A DNA stretch of 64,000 bases from positions 3,348,001 through 3,412,000 of the forward strand of contig NZ_CP028369.1 of the NCBI RefSeq assembly GCF_003032475.1. The letters are read 5' to 3'. A program made the translations under genes and the position numbers. This document shows, in pieces, positions 7,681 to 60,214 of this stretch (positions are counted from its first letter, which is position 1; the number at the start of each line of letters is the position of its first letter). The notes below the pieces were generated by a model. The model saw only the letters and a list, made by a program, of their open reading frames with translations, had not been told where the DNA came from and ran no database searches. This DNA is from Streptomyces sp. P3 (lineage in GTDB: Bacteria; Actinomycetota; Actinomycetes; Streptomycetales; Streptomycetaceae).

Positions 7681-7983
7681 TCAGCCGCCGTAGCCGCTGC
7701 CGCCGTGGCTGTGCTTGCCGCCGCCCTTGCCGTGGTGGTCGCCATCGACGTTGGCGCAGGTGTTGCCGAAGGCCGGGTTCAGCAGGCCCGGTGCGTTGAT
7801 GGTGTTGCCGCAGACGTTGACCGGGATGTGGACCGGAACCTGGACGACGTTGCCCGACAGGACACCCGGCGAGCCCACGGCCGCGCCCTGCGCACCCGCG
7901 TCCGCCATGGCCAGGCCGGCTCCGCTGACCACCACGGCGCTGGTGCCGAGGGCAACAGCGGCGACCTTCGCGATGCGAGACAT
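7681..7983 (-). CDS. chpG: Short chaplin with His/Gly-rich tail, ChpG-like
   Basis: 100 residues: signal peptide MSRIAKVAAVALGTSAVVV...AMA, one chaplin domain (SPGVLSGNVVQVPVHIPVNV, CGN, GLLNPAFGN, second Cys in NTCANV), then a tail GDHHGKGGGKHSHGGSGYGG not found in the ChpF-like copy. The His/Gly tail could bind metal or extend the fibre; that is inference. AAGGAG sits six bases before the ATG at 7981-7983. A GTG just upstream is also possible but has poor spacing. Location next to melC2 matches my memory of chpG. The domain is nearly identical to the copy at 3633. Confidence 0.9.
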   Translation of the reverse strand: MSRIAKVAAVALGTSAVVVSGAGLAMADAGAQGAAVGSPGVLSGNVVQVPVHIPVNVCGNTINAPGLLNPAFGNTCANVDGDHHGKGGGKHSHGGSGYGG

Positions 7984-8123
7984 CACGTTCTCCTTAAGTG
8001 ATTCGGTACGTGCGGCAGCAGAAGGCGCCGCCGCACGCCCCGTTCAACGCCGCCGCCCCCGACCGGTCACGGCACGGCCGTACGGATCACCCTTTTTGAA
8101 CAGGAAGCAGTACGGACGGGTGG

Positions 8124-8402
8124 CTAGGGCGACTGGAGACAGGCCGTGACGAAGTCGGCCAGGGTGGCGATGGACTGCAGGCTGTCCAGGCTCAGGTCCA
8201 GCGCGGCCACGTCGACGCCGTAGCGCCGGTCGATCGAGCCCAGCAGGGCGACGCCGGCCAGCGAGGTGAGGCCGATGCGCGGACCGAACAGGTCGGCGTC
8301 GGCGGGGAGTTCCGCGACGAGGGTCTCGTCCAGGCGGGCGGCCTCGGCGATCATCGAACGGATCTCCCGTTCCACCGCGGCCCGGTCCGGTGTGTCGCTC
8401 AC
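8124..8402 (-). CDS. Stand-alone acyl carrier protein
   Basis: 92 residues from a GTG at 8400-8402 that overlaps the stop of the FkbH-like gene (GTGA). It has the ACP four-helix pattern: AVEREIRSMIAEAARLD, then LFGPRIGLTSLAGVALLGSI with Ser47 in the place of the phosphopantetheine serine (LTSL instead of the usual DSL), then DRRYGVDV and a C-terminal helix. The Asp before the Ser is replaced by Thr, as in some discrete carriers paired with FkbH proteins. It probably carries an acyl group loaded by the adjacent FkbH-like enzyme. The PPTase at 12172 is the obvious activator. No ketosynthase or condensation domain is present in the window. Confidence 0.85.
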   Translation of the reverse strand: MSDTPDRAAVEREIRSMIAEAARLDETLVAELPADADLFGPRIGLTSLAGVALLGSIDRRYGVDVAALDLSLDSLQSIATLADFVTACLQSP

Positions 8403-9475
8403 GCCTCGGTGTCCTCTCGGTCGGATACGTGCAGCCATGCGGGCGGCTCGGGCAGGTCGCCGTGCAGGGACCTGCCGAGGACCGCGCCCGCGGCGGTGTC
8501 GGCGGTGTCGTCCGTGCGGCGCAGGCCCGCCTGGCGGAGCAGCATGCGCATCTCGAGGTTGGCGTCCGTCGGGCGCAGCGTCACCCGGAACTCCTCGGCG
8601 CCGGCCGCGCGGGAGCGCTCCATCAGCCGGAACAGGAAGGCGGCCGCCGCACCCCGCCCGGCCACCCGGCAGGAGAGGGCCAGCAGCGGCACGGACCGGA
8701 CGGCGGGAGCGGTCCCGTCGACGAGGGCGGCGCCGATGACGCCGTAGTCGCCGAAACGGTCCGTCATGGCGGCCGTGAACAGCTCGTGTCCCGCCGAGCC
8801 GGCCAGCTCGCGCAGTCGGTCGGGGGTGAGGCCGGAGGAGTTCAGCCGGTGCGTGCGGGCGGCGAGCTCCAGCGCGCGCGGGAGCTCCTCGGGCGTGGCG
8901 GCGCCGACGGTGAGGCGCATGCCGCACCAGCGCAGGAACTCCTCGCGGGTGCCCCGGAAGCGGTCGGCCTCGGCCCGGCGGGTCTCCTCGGTGCGGTAGC
9001 GCTGAACGCGCGCGCGGGACTCGGGGGTCTCCTCCCGGCCCTCGAAGGCGGCCAGCAGCGCCGGGACCTGCGCGGGGTCGAGGGTGCGCACGCCCGGCAG
9101 CAGGGCCTCGACCTCGGCGCGCTCGTAGGGGGAGTCGTCGACCAGCAGCAGGGCCTCCACCGCGATGCCGAGCTCCTTCGCGATCGCGCGCAGCGACTCG
9201 CTCTTGTCCTGCCAGGAGACCTGCGGGGCGAGGAAGCGCGCCCGCAGGCCGGGCACGTCGTCCAGCCGGCCGAGGACCGAGGGCGCGCTGCGGCTGGCGA
9301 TGCTGCTCAGCACGCCGCGGGCCGCCAGCGCGTCGATCGCGGCGAGCATCCGGGGGCGGGGCACGGGCAGCGCGTCGGTGGCCGACTCGAGGGCGATCTC
9401 GTCCCACAGTGTGCCGTCGAGGTCCCAGACGACGCACTTGACCCGGTCGGGATCGAAGCCCTCCGGGCCGCTCAT
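8399..9475 (-). CDS. FkbH-like HAD protein (possible glyceryl-ACP loading enzyme)
   Basis: 358 residues. The N-terminal HAD fold starts with VVWDLDGTLW (Asp18, Asp20), then SWQDKSESLRAIAKELGI and LLVDDSPYERAEVEALLPGV. The C-terminal part has the FkbH acyltransferase patterns RTHRLNSSG, DRFGDYGVIGAALVDG and LALSCRVAGRG, with Cys269 where glyceryl-loading FkbH enzymes hold their acyl intermediate. In that family the protein takes glycerate from 1,3-bisphosphoglycerate, removes phosphate and loads an ACP. Its ATG overlaps the bpsA stop (ATGA) and its stop overlaps the ACP start, so the three are coupled. The HAD middle motif reads ASRSAPS rather than the usual SKND, so the donor may differ. Confidence 0.8.
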   Translation of the reverse strand: MSGPEGFDPDRVKCVVWDLDGTLWDEIALESATDALPVPRPRMLAAIDALAARGVLSSIASRSAPSVLGRLDDVPGLRARFLAPQVSWQDKSESLRAIAKELGIAVEALLLVDDSPYERAEVEALLPGVRTLDPAQVPALLAAFEGREETPESRARVQRYRTEETRRAEADRFRGTREEFLRWCGMRLTVGAATPEELPRALELAARTHRLNSSGLTPDRLRELAGSAGHELFTAAMTDRFGDYGVIGAALVDGTAPAVRSVPLLALSCRVAGRGAAAAFLFRLMERSRAAGAEEFRVTLRPTDANLEMRMLLRQAGLRRTDDTADTAAGAVLGRSLHGDLPEPPAWLHVSDREDTEA

Positions 9476-11343
9476 CGGACGCCGTCCTGCTCCGGCAGGA
9501 ACAGCTTCATCGCCAGACTGGTGGGGTCGAAGCCGAACTTGCGGTAGACCGTGCGCATCGGGACGTTGCCCACGTGCACCCGGCCGACGACCTCGGTGAT
9601 GCCGTTCGCCAGGCAGAACTCCAGGCCCGCGGTGAGCAGGAGTTCCGCGACGTCGCTGCGGTTGTCGACGGGGGACACCGCGAGGGAGCGGAAGTTGGCG
9701 TAACGGTCGCCGGTCATCGCGTTCTGGTTGATGCTCACCCAGCACCAGCCGACGGGCTCCTCGCCCGGCCCCTGGGCGACGATCATGCCCTCCTTCGACT
9801 TCTCCATGGCACGGCCGAGCCGGGCCGCCCACCGCTCGGGATCGTCGATGGCGTCCTCTCCGAAGGAGACCCGGGCGATCTCGGCCTCGAACCGTCCGAT
9901 GGCCGGCAGATCGCGCTCGTCGGCCTGACGGGTGGCATACGGCTGCGCCCGGTCGACGAGGGCGGCCCGGTCGTCGTCGCTCGGGGGGCGCCAGCCGTGG
10001 ACGCGTCCGGAGGGGGAGACGGGGGCGGGTGCGGCGGCGGGCGCCGGAGCGGGGGTGGCGGCGACCGGTGCGGGCGCGGGTGCGGGCTCCGGGGCCGCGA
10101 GGGATGTCGGGACCGAGGCCGCGTCCTGCGGGGCAGCCGGGGGCGCCGGTTCCTCTGCCGGGACCAGGCGGCCGGGGCGGAAGGGCCCCTTGCCGCAGTT
10201 CGGGCAGCCGTCGGCGCGCAGGGCGGCCACCGACGTCCAGCGGGCGCCGGGGCCGACGCGGATCCGGGCGTCGCACGCCGCGCAGGTGTACTCGCGCTGC
10301 CGGGTCCGCTTGTCGCCCGTGTAGAGGGGGCCGCTGAACTCGCCCAGGTGGGAGGGGGCCGTCGAGGTGGTCGTCAGGAGGTGCTGGAAGAAGCCGACCC
10401 CGCCGAGGATGCCGCTGCCCTCGTACTCGTTGAAGTTGCGGATGTAGCCGTTGGTGACCAGGCCGAGCGCCATGATCTCCCGCTGCACCTCCAGCATCTC
10501 GTCCGGGCTCTTGCCGCCGAAGGAGAAGAAGACGCTGTGCGCCGGACCGGGCCGCAGGCCCTCCACGGCGCGGGAGAGGAAGAGCCGGGCGCCTTCCGGG
10601 GTGTACGGCGGGTCGGTCATGGCCACGTCGTGCCGCCCGTGCAGCGCGGCGGGCAGCGGCAGCCGCAGGTCGTGCCGGACGGTCTCCACGCGTGTGCCGA
10701 GACCGGCCGCCGTCTTGCGGATGTGGTCGAGGATCTCCTCCGAGATGTCCACGACGGTGACCTGCTCGACGATCGGGCCGCCGAGCACGTCGCCCACCAC
10801 GGCGACGGCGAGCGAGATCAGGTCGTCGTCCCCGATCAGCAGGAGCGAGCCGCCCGGCAGCGCGCCGGCCGTGAGCAGCGCGAGCACCCGGCGGACCTTG
10901 GTCTCGGCCGTGCAGTGCGACTGGTCGATCGCCATGTCGGCGGCGGGACCCGACTCCATCAGCGCGCGCAACCGCCGCACGGCCTCGTCCAGCACGTCGG
11001 GGACGACCAGCTCGCGCCCGTCGCAGGCGCGGCAGGTGGCGTCGAGGACGAGGTCCATGCCGAGCCGGGCGACGAGCTCCTGACCGGCCTCGGTCAGCCG
11101 CGACGGGCGTTGCGTGGTGACGATGCCCCGCCGCCGCAACTCGTTCCCCAGCGCGGCGACGATCGGGACGGGCAGCCCGGTGGCCCGGCTGAGGTCCTTG
11201 GTGGAGGCGGGAGCCAGCCGGCGCAGGGCGCGCAGGACGGACCGCACTCCCGGCGGACCCTCCTGGAGACGGACGGCGTCCGCTACTTCCGTGAGCACGG
11301 ATTCGGCGGTGCTGCTCCCAGGGTGCCGACGCGCGTTGGTCAC
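9472..11343 (-). CDS. bpsA: BpsA-type branched polyamine synthase fused to a GNAT domain
   Basis: 623 residues. Residues 1-95 form winged-helix-like segments. A zinc CxxC follows (Cys104, Cys107, then ELVVPD). The aminopropyltransferase core has LIGDDDLISLAV (171-174), VVDISEEILDHIRKTA, the catalytic-region DPP (244-246) and GYIRNFNEYEGSG (301-307). These match archaeal BpsA (family DUF43), which transfers aminopropyl groups from decarboxylated SAM to a secondary amine to make branched polyamines. A second four-Cys ribbon (354, 357, 380, 383) is followed by an Ala/Pro linker and a GNAT acetyltransferase domain from about 465. Archaeal BpsA stops near residue 350, so the rest is extra. The GTG at 11341-11343 has GGAG ten bases upstream. 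Confidence 0.85.
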   Translation of the reverse strand: MTNARRHPGSSTAESVLTEVADAVRLQEGPPGVRSVLRALRRLAPASTKDLSRATGLPVPIVAALGNELRRRGIVTTQRPSRLTEAGQELVARLGMDLVLDATCRACDGRELVVPDVLDEAVRRLRALMESGPAADMAIDQSHCTAETKVRRVLALLTAGALPGGSLLLIGDDDLISLAVAVVGDVLGGPIVEQVTVVDISEEILDHIRKTAAGLGTRVETVRHDLRLPLPAALHGRHDVAMTDPPYTPEGARLFLSRAVEGLRPGPAHSVFFSFGGKSPDEMLEVQREIMALGLVTNGYIRNFNEYEGSGILGGVGFFQHLLTTTSTAPSHLGEFSGPLYTGDKRTRQREYTCAACDARIRVGPGARWTSVAALRADGCPNCGKGPFRPGRLVPAEEPAPPAAPQDAASVPTSLAAPEPAPAPAPVAATPAPAPAAAPAPVSPSGRVHGWRPPSDDDRAALVDRAQPYATRQADERDLPAIGRFEAEIARVSFGEDAIDDPERWAARLGRAMEKSKEGMIVAQGPGEEPVGWCWVSINQNAMTGDRYANFRSLAVSPVDNRSDVAELLLTAGLEFCLANGITEVVGRVHVGNVPMRTVYRKFGFDPTSLAMKLFLPEQDGVR

Positions 11344-11386
11344 AATGCTGCTCCAGGCAAGCTGACGGTGGATTGCGGGAACATCC

Positions 11387-11392
11387 AGTATA
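11387..11392 (-). promoter_or_regulatory. Candidate -10 box for the bpsA-fkbH-acp arm
   Basis: On the minus strand this reads TATACT, a near-consensus -10, about 44 bases before the bpsA GTG. No matching -35 is seen 17-18 bases upstream, so an activator or another sigma factor may be needed. Confidence 0.4.
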
Positions 11393-11460
11393 CGGGCCGG
11401 TAGGCGGCCGACCGGACCCACTCCCGCACCGTGGAAACAGCCGGGTATCGCGGTGCGTAA

Positions 11461-11483
11461 GGGAAACTCGAGAAAAGTTTCCC
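11461..11483. promoter_or_regulatory. 8-bp inverted repeat, possible operator
   Basis: GGGAAACT (11461-11468), seven-base spacer, AGTTTCCC (11476-11483). It lies between the two divergent promoters of the polyamine cluster, where a shared regulator could act. The arms also echo partially at 11506-11528. Confidence 0.35.
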
Positions 11484-11651
11484 GGAGCGTTTCGCCAGCG
11501 GTGTCGCAGCGTTTTCGAAGAGTTTCCGGGCGGCTCGGGTAAATAATTTCCTGACGGCTTGTGCAGCGGCTTCCGTAATCGATTCCGTAATGGCTTCCAC
11601 AACGGCCCGGGCGCAGTGATGCCGGAACGCCCCGAGTGTCCCCGGGCCCCC

Positions 11652-11681
11652 TTGACAGAAGGGGCGCGCGAGCCGTAGGGC
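11652..11681 (+). promoter_or_regulatory. Candidate promoter of speD-PPTase
   Basis: TTGACA at 11652-11657, 18-base spacer, TAGGGC at 11676-11681. The -35 is a perfect consensus, unusual in Streptomyces; the -10 is weak. A start near 11688 would leave a leader of about 74 bases. Confidence 0.5.
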
Positions 11682-11721
11682 GTCCCGGATGCTACGCTGG
11701 GGGCCATCGAGCGCCTATGTG

Positions 11722-11761
11722 AAAGGAGACGGGGGAAGCAGTTCGCCACCCCCGGTTCCCC
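11722..11761 (+). promoter_or_regulatory. Displaced ribosome site and hairpin leader of speD
   Basis: AAAGGAG at 11722-11728 is the only good Shine-Dalgarno, but lies 33 bases before the ATG, too far for normal use. Between them GGGGAA (11732-11737) can pair with TTCCCC (11756-11761). Folding would bring the ribosome site close to the ATG. ATGTGA at 11717-11722, a start directly followed by a stop, lies just upstream. Confidence 0.4.
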
Positions 11762-12142
11762 ATGACCAACTCCGCCAGCCTCGCCACCGAGGGTATAAAC
11801 GTCGACGATCTGTGCTCTTATGCGGTCGACGTATGGGTGAGCGACCACAGCATCCTGACCGACGAGGAGCGCCTCCTCCAGGTGCTGCGCACGGCCGCCG
11901 AAAAGGGAAACGCCACGGTTCTCGGTGAGGCGTCGCACGTTTTCCCGAACGGTGCCGTCACCGCTATTCTGCTGCTTTCCGCATCGCATCTGAGCATTCA
12001 CACCTGGCCCGAATTCAGCCTGGCCAACGTGGACCTCCTCGCCTACGGCCGGCTGAACGGCGAGCGGATGATGCAGAGCGTGGAACTCGGCCTCTCGCCG
12101 ACGCGGATCAACGTCACGCGCATGCTGCGCGCCGTGCACTGA
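11762..12142 (+). CDS. speD: SpeD homologue (pyruvoyl-dependent decarboxylase family) with altered active site
   Basis: 126 residues, the length of prokaryotic class 1b S-adenosylmethionine decarboxylases. The core LLSASHLSIHTWPEFSLANV matches the processing region, with Ser75 as the pyruvoyl precursor and His80 conserved. Compared from memory with Thermotoga SpeD (SESHLTIHTWPE ... LFTCG), the Glu before the serine is Ala74, and the catalytic Cys83 equivalent is Tyr95 (LLAYG). That Cys takes part in processing and decarboxylation, so the enzyme may act on ornithine or arginine, or differently on SAM, as shown for some neofunctionalised SpeD proteins. No in-frame ATG/GTG/TTG exists upstream before a stop at 11720. 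Next to bpsA it should supply donor or acceptor. Confidence 0.85.
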   Translation: MTNSASLATEGINVDDLCSYAVDVWVSDHSILTDEERLLQVLRTAAEKGNATVLGEASHVFPNGAVTAILLLSASHLSIHTWPEFSLANVDLLAYGRLNGERMMQSVELGLSPTRINVTRMLRAVH

Positions 12143-12171
12143 CCCGTTCCTCTCCCTCCGGCACCGGGCCC

Positions 12172-12963
12172 GTGATCTCCGTACAGGTCGCGTGGGCGCG
12201 CCTCGGCGACGCCCGCGCGGATCTGCTGACGCTCCTCGATCCCGTGGAGCGCGGCCGCCACGACGAGACCGTCGCCCCGGCCGACCGGGCCCGCTTCCTC
12301 GTCGGCTGCGCCCTGAGCCGTCTGCTGCTGGGTGAACTGCTCGATCTCCCCCCGGCGGACGTGCCGTTGCGGCGGGTGTGTCCGCGCTGCGGTGGACCGC
12401 ACGGAAAGGTCCGGCTGGACACGCCGGGCGCCCCTGCGCCGTACGACTTCTCGGTGACCCACAGCGGCGCGCTCGTCGGCGTGGCGGTGTCCTCGGACGG
12501 AGCCGTGGGCCTCGACGTCGAGGACTGCGAGGTGCCTGTCGATGTCGAGGGTGCCGCACGGACCGCACTGTCCGGGACCGAGCTGGCCGCCCTTCACGCC
12601 CTGCCCCCCGCCGAGCGAGGCCCGGCCTTCCTGCGCGTCTGGACCAGGAAGGAAGCCGTGCTGAAGGCCCTCGGCGTGGGCCTGCGCATGCCGTTGCGCG
12701 GACTGAAGGTCTCGTCGCCCGAAGCGCCCCCGGCCGTGCTCGCCTGGCCGCCCCCGCCGTCCGTCCCTCCCGGCCGGCACCCGGCCGACCTGCGGATGGC
12801 GGACCTGCTAGTCGACGGCGTGCATCCGGCGACGGTGGCGACGGTGGCGACAGCGGTGACACCGGCGACGGGGCCCGGGACGGGTGGCGCGGTGAGCGGC
12901 CCGGGAGAGGTGCGGGTCGTCCCCCGCGACGGCTCGGCCGTACTCGCCGCCCACGACCGCTGA
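12172..12963 (+). CDS. Sfp-type 4'-phosphopantetheinyl transferase
   Basis: 263 residues. The motifs are FSVTHSGALVGVAVS (residues 93-107), VGLDVED (magnesium-binding Asp115 and Glu117) and RVWTRKEAVLKALGVGL (Trp157, Lys160, Glu161). The N-terminal half has the ARFLVGCALSRLLLGELL pattern and a CPRCGGPHGK segment normal in this family. It transfers phosphopantetheine from CoA to a carrier-protein serine. It starts at a GTG 29 bases after speD, almost certainly in the same transcript, and the nearest carrier is the ACP at 8124. The last 60 residues are an Ala/Val/Thr/Gly-rich low-complexity tail (ATVATVATAVTPATG), unusual for the family. Confidence 0.9.
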   Translation: MISVQVAWARLGDARADLLTLLDPVERGRHDETVAPADRARFLVGCALSRLLLGELLDLPPADVPLRRVCPRCGGPHGKVRLDTPGAPAPYDFSVTHSGALVGVAVSSDGAVGLDVEDCEVPVDVEGAARTALSGTELAALHALPPAERGPAFLRVWTRKEAVLKALGVGLRMPLRGLKVSSPEAPPAVLAWPPPPSVPPGRHPADLRMADLLVDGVHPATVATVATAVTPATGPGTGGAVSGPGEVRVVPRDGSAVLAAHDR

Positions 12964-13163: not shown

Positions 13164-13172
13164 GGAGACTTG

Positions 13173-13245
13173 CGCCCCCGGCAGGACTCGAACCTGCGGC
13201 CAAGCGCTTAGAAGGCGCCTGCTCTATCCACTGAGCTACGGGGGC
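13173..13245 (-). tRNA. tRNA-Arg (anticodon TCT)
   Basis: The 73-base cloverleaf reads on the minus strand from GCCCCCG (acceptor) through GCTC-AGTGGATA-GAGC (D arm), GGCGC-CTTCTAA-GCGCT (anticodon arm with TCT) and GCAGG-TTCGAGT-CCTGC (T arm) to CGGGGGC plus discriminator G. The next bases are CA, so CCA is not fully encoded. It reads AGA, a rare codon in this genome. Confidence 0.95.
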
Positions 13246-59649: not shown

Positions 59650-59880
59650 ATGAAGATCAGTGTGAGCCTGCCGCAGGAGGACGTCGCCTTCGTCGACGAG
59701 TACGCGTCCAGAACCGAGGCCGATTCGCGGTCCGCCGTGATACACGCTGCCATCGAACTGCTGCGTGCCGATCAGCTGGAGGCCGAGTACGCCGAGGCAT
59801 TCCAGGAATGGGACGGGAGCGAGGACGCCGGGTTCTGGGACAGGTTCGCGGGCGACGGGCTGGCTGATGAGACGCGGTGA
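59650..59880 (+). CDS. MazE-type (ribbon-helix-helix) antitoxin
   Basis: 76 residues: MKISVSLPQEDVAFVDEYAS is a ribbon-helix-helix strand and helix, and the acidic C-terminus (FQEWDGSEDAGFWDRFAGDG) is the likely toxin-wrapping tail. The last 14 bases overlap the toxin gene. It should neutralise the MazF-like partner and repress the shared promoter. Confidence 0.85.
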   Translation: MKISVSLPQEDVAFVDEYASRTEADSRSAVIHAAIELLRADQLEAEYAEAFQEWDGSEDAGFWDRFAGDGLADETR

Positions 59881-60214
59881 CATCTATCTGGTCGACTACG
59901 AGCCGACGCGAGGCAGCGAAGGGAACAAGGCGCGCCCCTCGGTGATCGTCTCCAACGACGCCGCCAACCGGTCGGTCGAGCGCCACGGCCGAGGGGTGAT
60001 CACCGTGGTGCCCCTCACGTCGAACACGACGCGCGTCCTGACGTTCCAGGTGTTCCTCGGCGCGGACGAGTGCCACTTGCCCAAGGACTCGAAGGCTCAG
60101 TGCGAGCAGGTTCGAGCCGTGACTCCGGAGCGGATCCTTGCGCGGATCGGTGCGGTGCCACGACCGCGCATGGCGGAGATCGACGGCGCACTCAGGCGGC
60201 ACCTCGCTCTCTGA
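59867..60214 (+). CDS. MazF/PemK-type toxin ribonuclease
   Basis: 115 residues. MazF features: MRRGDIYLVDYEPTRGSEGN, KARPSVIVSNDAANRS, ITVVPLTSNT and KAQCEQVRAVTPERILARIG. The catalytic Arg (in KARPSV) and Thr (VPLTS) are present, so it should be active. Such toxins cut mRNA at short motifs and stop growth. ATG overlaps the antitoxin by 14 bases. A shared strong terminator separates it from asd. Confidence 0.88.
   Translation: MRRGDIYLVDYEPTRGSEGNKARPSVIVSNDAANRSVERHGRGVITVVPLTSNTTRVLTFQVFLGADECHLPKDSKAQCEQVRAVTPERILARIGAVPRPRMAEIDGALRRHLAL

Follow-up and report, generated by a model that had tools for sequence, protein, structure and literature searches.

A set of five genes in Streptomyces sp. 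P3, which encodes an acyl carrier protein (ACP), an FkbH-like protein, a BpsA-family aminopropyltransferase homologue fused to a GNAT domain, a SpeD homologue and a 4'-phosphopantetheinyl transferase (PPTase), is conserved across four genera and is no chance neighbourhood. The genes lie at 8124..12963 of the 64,000-nucleotide stretch analyzed here (the window; contig NZ_CP028369.1, positions 3,348,001 to 3,412,000), flanked by a chaplin gene (7681-7986) and a tRNA-Arg gene (13172-13245). The genome is 9.85 Mb in a single contig, and the best BpsA homologues that carry an organism name come from Streptomyces. Our leading interpretation, held tentatively and rated somewhat short of even, is that these genes make up one conserved small-molecule pathway of actinobacteria in which an amine would be aminopropylated and then receive an ACP-dependent glyceryl cap.

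In such a pathway the PPTase would arm the ACP, and the FkbH protein would dephosphorylate 1,3-bisphosphoglycerate and put a D-glyceryl group on the carrier. The SpeD homologue, as a pyruvoyl decarboxylase, would provide an alkyl donor, most likely decarboxylated S-adenosylmethionine (SAM), from which the BpsA domain would move an aminopropyl group to an amine. Finally, the GNAT domain, which lacks the CoA-binding loop, would move the acyl group from the ACP to the amine as an amide cap, and the expected product would be a small N-glyceroyl polyamine. We infer each of these chemical steps, as well as the acyl group, the acceptor and the meeting of both arms in one product. An earlier reading of the window made without database searches (the sequence-only reading) had proposed that no such pathway is described, and our searches of the open-licence PMC literature likewise listed none combining these enzymes. 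The parts of the locus are as follows.

8124..8402, minus strand: stand-alone ACP, 92 amino acids, GTG start, phosphopantetheine Ser in GLTSL
8399..9475, minus strand: FkbH-domain protein, 358 amino acids, HAD-IIIC phosphatase and a C-terminal part with an SCR motif
9472..11343, minus strand: BpsA-family aminopropyltransferase homologue, 623 amino acids, GTG start, with CxxC...CxxC ribbon, Pro/Ala linker and C-terminal GNAT
10150..10290 (approximate bounds), minus strand: CxxC...CxxC ribbon of BpsA, about residues 352-398, with C354, C357, C380 and C383
9472..9948, minus strand: GNAT domain of BpsA-GNAT, residues 466-623, V and E at the P-loop glycine positions
11762..12142, plus strand: SpeD (AdoMetDC-family) homologue, 126 amino acids, pyruvoyl Ser75 and His80 kept
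12172..12963, plus strand: Sfp-type PPTase, 263 amino acids, GTG start

Each part has a family match over the curated cut-off: ACP to PF00550 (30.1 bits, cut-off 20.8), FkbH to TIGR01686 (182.7, cut-off 146.65), the BpsA part to PF01861 BpsA_C (131.2, cut-off 27), the GNAT part to PF00583 (24.6, cut-off 20.7), SpeD to PF02675 (81.8, cut-off 25) and the PPTase to PF01648 (52.0, cut-off 25). The only family match below its curated cut-off is that of SpeD to the TIGR03330 equivalog (74.0 against 75.65 bits). On the minus strand, the ACP/FkbH and FkbH/BpsA-GNAT junctions are both 4-base overlaps, and on the plus strand SpeD and the PPTase gene are separated by 29 bases. The sequence-only reading had named these five genes, the overlaps and the divergent SpeD and PPTase pair, and all of them are found with agreeing coordinates. 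Its view that the cluster lacks a polyketide synthase (PKS) or non-ribosomal peptide synthetase (NRPS) also holds: no PKS, NRPS, ketosynthase or acyl-CoA dehydrogenase occurs among the 20 other window proteins scanned (of 59 genes called in the window, these are most of those within the first 30.2 kb and two around 60 kb).

Scanning the GTDB species genomes with a BpsA alignment returned 26 loci, from Streptomyces (one recorded as Actinobacteria bacterium OV320), one Goodfellowiella, two Crossiella and two Allokutzneria. Four loci on contigs that stop at or soon after BpsA (L016, L018, L020 and L027) were left out of the four-gene counts, and SpeD stands beside BpsA in all four; some genes of L014 and L019, which match as two pieces or shift frame, were taken as present, unmended. 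All 22 loci with enough flank hold BpsA, GNAT, FkbH and ACP next to one another in an unchanged order; they span Streptomyces, Goodfellowiella, Crossiella and Allokutzneria, with surroundings that differ. SpeD adjoins BpsA in 19 of these 22 loci and in 23 of all 26 fetched. Each genome of the three loci without an adjacent SpeD (L021, L022 and L025) has a cluster-type SpeD elsewhere, which in Goodfellowiella lies about 9 kb past the ACP gene on the same contig. In Crossiella and Allokutzneria (two loci each), GNAT is encoded by a gene of its own, so the neighbourhood is held together by more than fusion; the fusion named in the sequence-only reading is present in the window and is not essential to the plan of the cluster.

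One genome of another family of the class (G649, locus L079) carries all six genes (BpsA, GNAT, FkbH, ACP, SpeD and PPTase) at 40-58% identity to the queries used, with the ACP (20.1 against 20.8 bits) and FkbH (146.0 against 146.65) just under the curated cut-offs. Among 199 genomes of the same genus, PF01861 BpsA occurs in six and PF02675 SpeD in eight, including all six (hypergeometric 3.5e-10, uncorrected for relatedness). A search for FkbH in these 199 genomes found 85 with a match at E of 1e-20 or below; orthologues at 82-100% identity occur in five genomes, each with BpsA. The sixth BpsA genome (G157) has an FkbH fragment at 53% identity, and elsewhere the top match reaches 46%. In a sample of the phylum, PF01861 exceeds its cut-off in 14 of 396 genomes, and seven of these matches, at 293-322 bits, score far over the 134 of the window and may be the archaeal and thermophile kind of BpsA. 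In two genomes of one family (L048 in G289 and L049 in G381), a BpsA_C-family domain is followed, in a longer protein, by an unidentified C-terminal part. PF02675 is found in 19 of 394 genomes of a class sample, and among the regions read around these SpeDs, not all of them at length, BpsA appears only in those of the same genus and in G649. Co-occurrence in other genomes was the test that the sequence-only reading had named, and the genes are indeed found together. Within Streptomyces, the median ratio of nonsynonymous to synonymous substitution (dN/dS) is 0.06 for SpeD, 0.21 for BpsA, 0.27 for GNAT, 0.33 for FkbH, 0.36 for ACP and 0.41 for PPTase.

In the acyl arm, the attachment Ser of the ACP is aligned in 23 of 23 sequences, and FkbH residues D18, D20, T22, S61, K91, D113, D114 and S268-C269-R270 are invariant among 22 diverse homologues. 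Against the PDB, FkbH matched only 3slr, over the HAD part. Of the next-closest FkbHs, 11 loci were fetched from the genus sample and ten were scanned and aligned, with L103 left out of both comparisons for unclear gene calls; G081, the second best FkbH match after the orthologues, is outside this comparison. An acyl-CoA dehydrogenase lies beside FkbH in ten of the ten, as is expected of methoxymalonyl-ACP sets (PMC7489565, excerpt). The window FkbH has the residues common to these ten dehydrogenase-linked proteins, except that two of the ten carry Asn in place of the second motif-IV Asp. Like the methoxymalonyl-ACP and tetronate sets, for example that of tetromadurin (PMC7489565, excerpt), the window thus combines the same FkbH catalytic and SCR residues with an adjoining stand-alone ACP; unlike them, it has BpsA and GNAT, and the 20 neighbours scanned include neither an acyl-CoA dehydrogenase nor a ketosynthase or NRPS domain. 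Because no dehydrogenase was found near the cluster, the arm could stop at glyceryl-ACP, and FkbH probably loads glyceryl onto the ACP here. The glyceryl half of the sequence-only reading therefore gains support from the kept FkbH residues, from the lack of a dehydrogenase among the scanned neighbours and from a GNAT domain without a P-loop, described below.

Fusions of FkbH to ACP were found in P0320 and P0331; P0303 was not counted as a third, as its middle part reads like a frameshift. An apparent loss of a catalytic Cys from the motif-II region of this FkbH was discounted, since most comparison FkbHs lack it too and the SCR Cys is shared. Feeding of a methoxymalonyl or tetronate pathway was rejected, given that neither an acyl-CoA dehydrogenase nor a ketosynthase occurs among the scanned window neighbours. 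At L079, an acyl-CoA-dehydrogenase-like gene (by reading) lies two genes upstream with a manA-like gene between, and the six-gene set as a whole (L079:2587-14348) lies among acyl-CoA dehydrogenase-, manA-, thiolase- and FadB-like genes in a region that resembles one for fatty-acid degradation, probably by chance.

The P-loop [QR]xxGx[GA] is the acyl-CoA-binding motif of GNATs. At the aligned site, it is present in none of 109 GNAT domains (the window and 108 of the 109 homologues of at least 500 amino acids among the 120 listed, one with a gap being left out); all 109 have V or I at position 4 and Glu at position 6. A P-loop-like string occurs elsewhere in the last 160 residues of ten of them, and the GNAT of L079, outside this set, has V and R at positions 4 and 6. 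The absence of the motif argues against CoA as the donor and, with an ACP in the same operon, suggests acyl-ACP in its place. GNAT-fold acyl-homoserine lactone synthases of the LuxI type, which take acyl groups from acyl-ACP (PMC1282579, excerpt), are a precedent, with a likeness of proposed mechanism only. A profile search of the PDB with the GNAT domain returned three matches, all weak: one to a putative acetyltransferase and two to proteins that carry only locus names. In the sequence-only reading, an ACP-bound acyl unit was passed to an amine through GNAT; of this, the FkbH, the ACP and the GNAT without a P-loop fit a probable glyceryl donor, and the polyamine side is less secure.

A missing P-loop could also mean missing catalysis, and the GNAT domain may be non-catalytic. 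This forms part of an alternative that we consider unlikely, in which FkbH loads a different acyl phosphate, or the product of BpsA is an aminopropylated non-polyamine such as an amino sugar. The GNAT domain has 39 invariant columns among ten sequences, which together with its median dN/dS is more constraint than a dead domain would be expected to show, and the FkbH residues shared with dehydrogenase-linked proteins also speak against this alternative. This alternative gains from the loss of a BpsA acceptor residue and from the setting of SpeD in Crossiella, both described below.

Several observations weigh against the glyceryl-capped polyamine as the product of this cluster, and they begin with BpsA. 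The window protein resembles the N4-bis(aminopropyl)spermidine synthase (BpsA) of Thermococcus kodakarensis and Thermus thermophilus in PF01861, in the GDDD motif, in the equivalents of Asp225 and Tyr290 and in having a SpeD gene nearby. It differs in DPPY for DPPE, in a CxxC ribbon in place of the acidic carrier, in the absence of Glu259, in a fused or adjacent GNAT and in its hosts, Streptomyces and other genera. Namely, D173 and D174 (Asp159 and Asp160 of GDDD), D244 (Asp225) and Y307 (Tyr290) are invariant in 22 BpsA sequences, where residue equivalence comes from alignment to 5xnc, with a chain-numbering offset of 20 inferred from GDDD, and residue roles from PMC12979288 (excerpt). Glu259 aligns with G277, in a column that is non-acidic in 22 of 22 rows and next to a gap in the 5xnc alignment. 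The acidic C-terminus that carries the aminopropyl group in T. kodakarensis BpsA (PMC12979288, excerpt) has no counterpart; the CxxC...CxxC ribbon is found there, in a part that is unalignable with 5xnc. All four ribbon cysteines are invariant in the 22 sequences, and the ribbon is predicted to bind zinc. With Glu259 and the acidic C-terminal carriers missing, aminopropyl transfer by this domain is likely and not assured. Streptomyces and the other host genera are usually regarded as mesophilic. If these hosts are mesophiles, the actinobacterial branch contradicts the restriction of bpsA to thermophilic lineages given in a 2026 review (PMC12979288, excerpt).

SpeD adds to these objections. In the T. 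maritima enzyme, Ser63, His68 and Cys83 are essential for self-processing (PMC10407285, excerpt), and the window SpeD has Ala at the Glu62 position and Tyr at the Cys83 position. We aligned 121 sequences, the window and 120 listed of 665 matches: the Ser63 equivalent is kept in 121, His68 in 118, and Pro71 and Glu72 of HTWPE in 121, whereas the Glu62 position is Ala or Gln in all 121 and the Cys83 position is Tyr in 92 and Cys in 29. The cluster-type SpeDs are therefore like the class 1b SAM decarboxylases and their ornithine decarboxylase (ODC) and arginine decarboxylase (ADC) derivatives (PMC10407285, excerpt) in PF02675, the pyruvoyl Ser, the His68 equivalent and HTWPE, and unlike them at the Glu62 position and, mostly, at the Cys83 position. 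By comparison, of 22 non-cluster SpeD loci fetched, 20 were readable (15 by pattern and five by alignment; L076 and L077 were not), and all 20 keep Glu62 and Cys83, including those beside a high-scoring BpsA (L040, L041 and L043). In the SpeDs of L036, L074 and L075, the His68 equivalent is replaced (STWPE for HTWPE), with no BpsA linkage in the stretch seen. The window SpeD matched no phage records; a canonical SpeD matched 58.

We rejected SpeD as a dead gene, as it is the most constrained of the six, and it is most likely functional. With two canonical positions missing and an extra paralogue in the two Crossiella genomes, it may make no decarboxylated SAM. A rather improbable rival is that SpeD has been neofunctionalised into a pyruvoyl decarboxylase acting on a different amino acid (ornithine, arginine or an unknown one) and makes the amine acceptor. 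BpsA would then draw its donor from elsewhere or use SAM itself, and the ACP, FkbH and GNAT arm would acylate the SpeD-made amine. Both Crossiella genomes do have a second, canonical SpeD (Glu62, Cys83), located between ODC-like and SpeE-like genes (L119 by Pfam scan, L120 from gene calls), and two SpeD homologues per genome served as a search criterion for changed function in earlier work (PMC10407285, excerpt). The Ala or Gln at the Glu62 position throughout the aligned relatives points the same way; Gln is among four residues diagnostic for SpeD-derived ODCs (PMC10407285, excerpt), at a position that could not be matched to the window SpeD. Set against this are Pro71 and Glu72, kept throughout: true SAM decarboxylases retain a Pro that ADCs do not conserve (PMC10407285, excerpt, with its position not stated in the text). 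The SpeD of L079 keeps Cys83 with Gln62 and passes TIGR03330 with 80.7 bits, and SpeD adjoins an aminopropyltransferase-family gene in nearly all of the loci counted above. Moreover, the window genome has one PF02675 match and two PF01564 (spermidine-synthase family) matches, so this SpeD would be its sole source of decarboxylated SAM. The polyamine half of the sequence-only reading thus keeps its SpeD and BpsA family genes and is less secure in their chemistry, given the residues that both have lost.

The genomic context of SpeD and BpsA also bears on whether the two arms belong together. In Crossiella, the cluster-type SpeD is unlinked and lies behind genes for a GT2 glycosyltransferase and a Gfo/Idh/MocA oxidoreductase (L117:4805-7041 and L118:4370-6619), in the same order in both genomes, a setting that favours the aminopropylated non-polyamine introduced above, as does the loss of Glu259. 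G157, one of the six same-genus BpsA genomes, keeps SpeD and BpsA-GNAT, with FkbH only as a remnant and no ACP found; after the remnant come genes for a ketoacyl synthase, an AMP-binding ligase and a thioesterase (L095:10953-14849 and L110:1768-5589). It is possible that another acyl arm has replaced the glyceryl arm there, or that this is simple decay. G157 thus indicates that the two arms can come apart. A further genome (G330) has a Tyr-type SpeD and a ribbon-bearing BpsA as a two-gene operon (L083:7948-9422). The 10.9 kb at this locus contains no match to FkbH or ACP, and the contig stops 1.5 kb past BpsA; such a pair fits SpeD serving BpsA. Given these three contexts, the product may be no simple polyamine amide. 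Finally, the FkbH substrate and the GNAT donor and acceptor are read from family and residues only.

The separation of the arms in G157 would also suit two unrelated neighbouring functions, namely polyamine synthesis or acetylation next to a stray glyceryl-ACP feeder for a distant PKS. FkbH-ACP pairs do feed PKSs elsewhere (PMC7489565, excerpt), and a PPTase match, present in the fetched flank of 19 of the 26 loci, is absent from that of the other seven, some of which are short, a further point against the single pathway. We nevertheless regard unrelated functions as highly improbable, since the four genes keep their order in every locus with enough flank amid differing surroundings, since L079 keeps all six at 40-58% identity to the queries, and since no acyl-CoA dehydrogenase was found beside FkbH among the scanned neighbours. 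A single pathway of aminopropylation and glyceryl capping, tentative as it is, remains the reading that we favour. A bolder version, which we regard as doubtful, is that the cluster defines a new class of actinobacterial natural products: a ribbon-bearing BpsA of non-thermophiles would build a polyamine and an ACP-using GNAT would cap it with D-glycerate, from six genes and with no PKS, NRPS or acyl-CoA, and the Tyr-for-Cys SpeD would act as its dedicated pyruvoyl decarboxylase.

Two short blocks are kept in most of 18 aligned loci, in an intergenic region that is otherwise variable.

11387..11397, minus strand: GCCCGTATACT block, 44-54 nucleotides upstream of the BpsA-GNAT start
11688-11694, minus strand: TAGCATC block

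TATACT within the first of these looks like a -10 element. Elsewhere in the window, the sole methyltransferase among the scanned neighbours is PCMT-type and 12 kb from the cluster, and a toxin-antitoxin pair, ribbon-helix-helix with PemK/MazF-like, lies at 59650-60214.

Taken together, Streptomyces and its Pseudonocardiales relatives hold a well-conserved branch of BpsA with a remodelled C-terminus and a SpeD partner with an altered active site. This raises two directly testable questions: which function BpsA proteins of this kind have, and whether glyceryl-ACP can serve a GNAT as donor. Likewise, the Cys-to-Tyr SpeD, beside the orthologous cluster of L079 that keeps Cys, constitutes a natural experiment on the pyruvoyl decarboxylase family. 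If both arms meet, these bacteria would have an amine-capping pathway that requires no PKS, NRPS or acyl-CoA. What the cluster makes may be a novel type of molecule.

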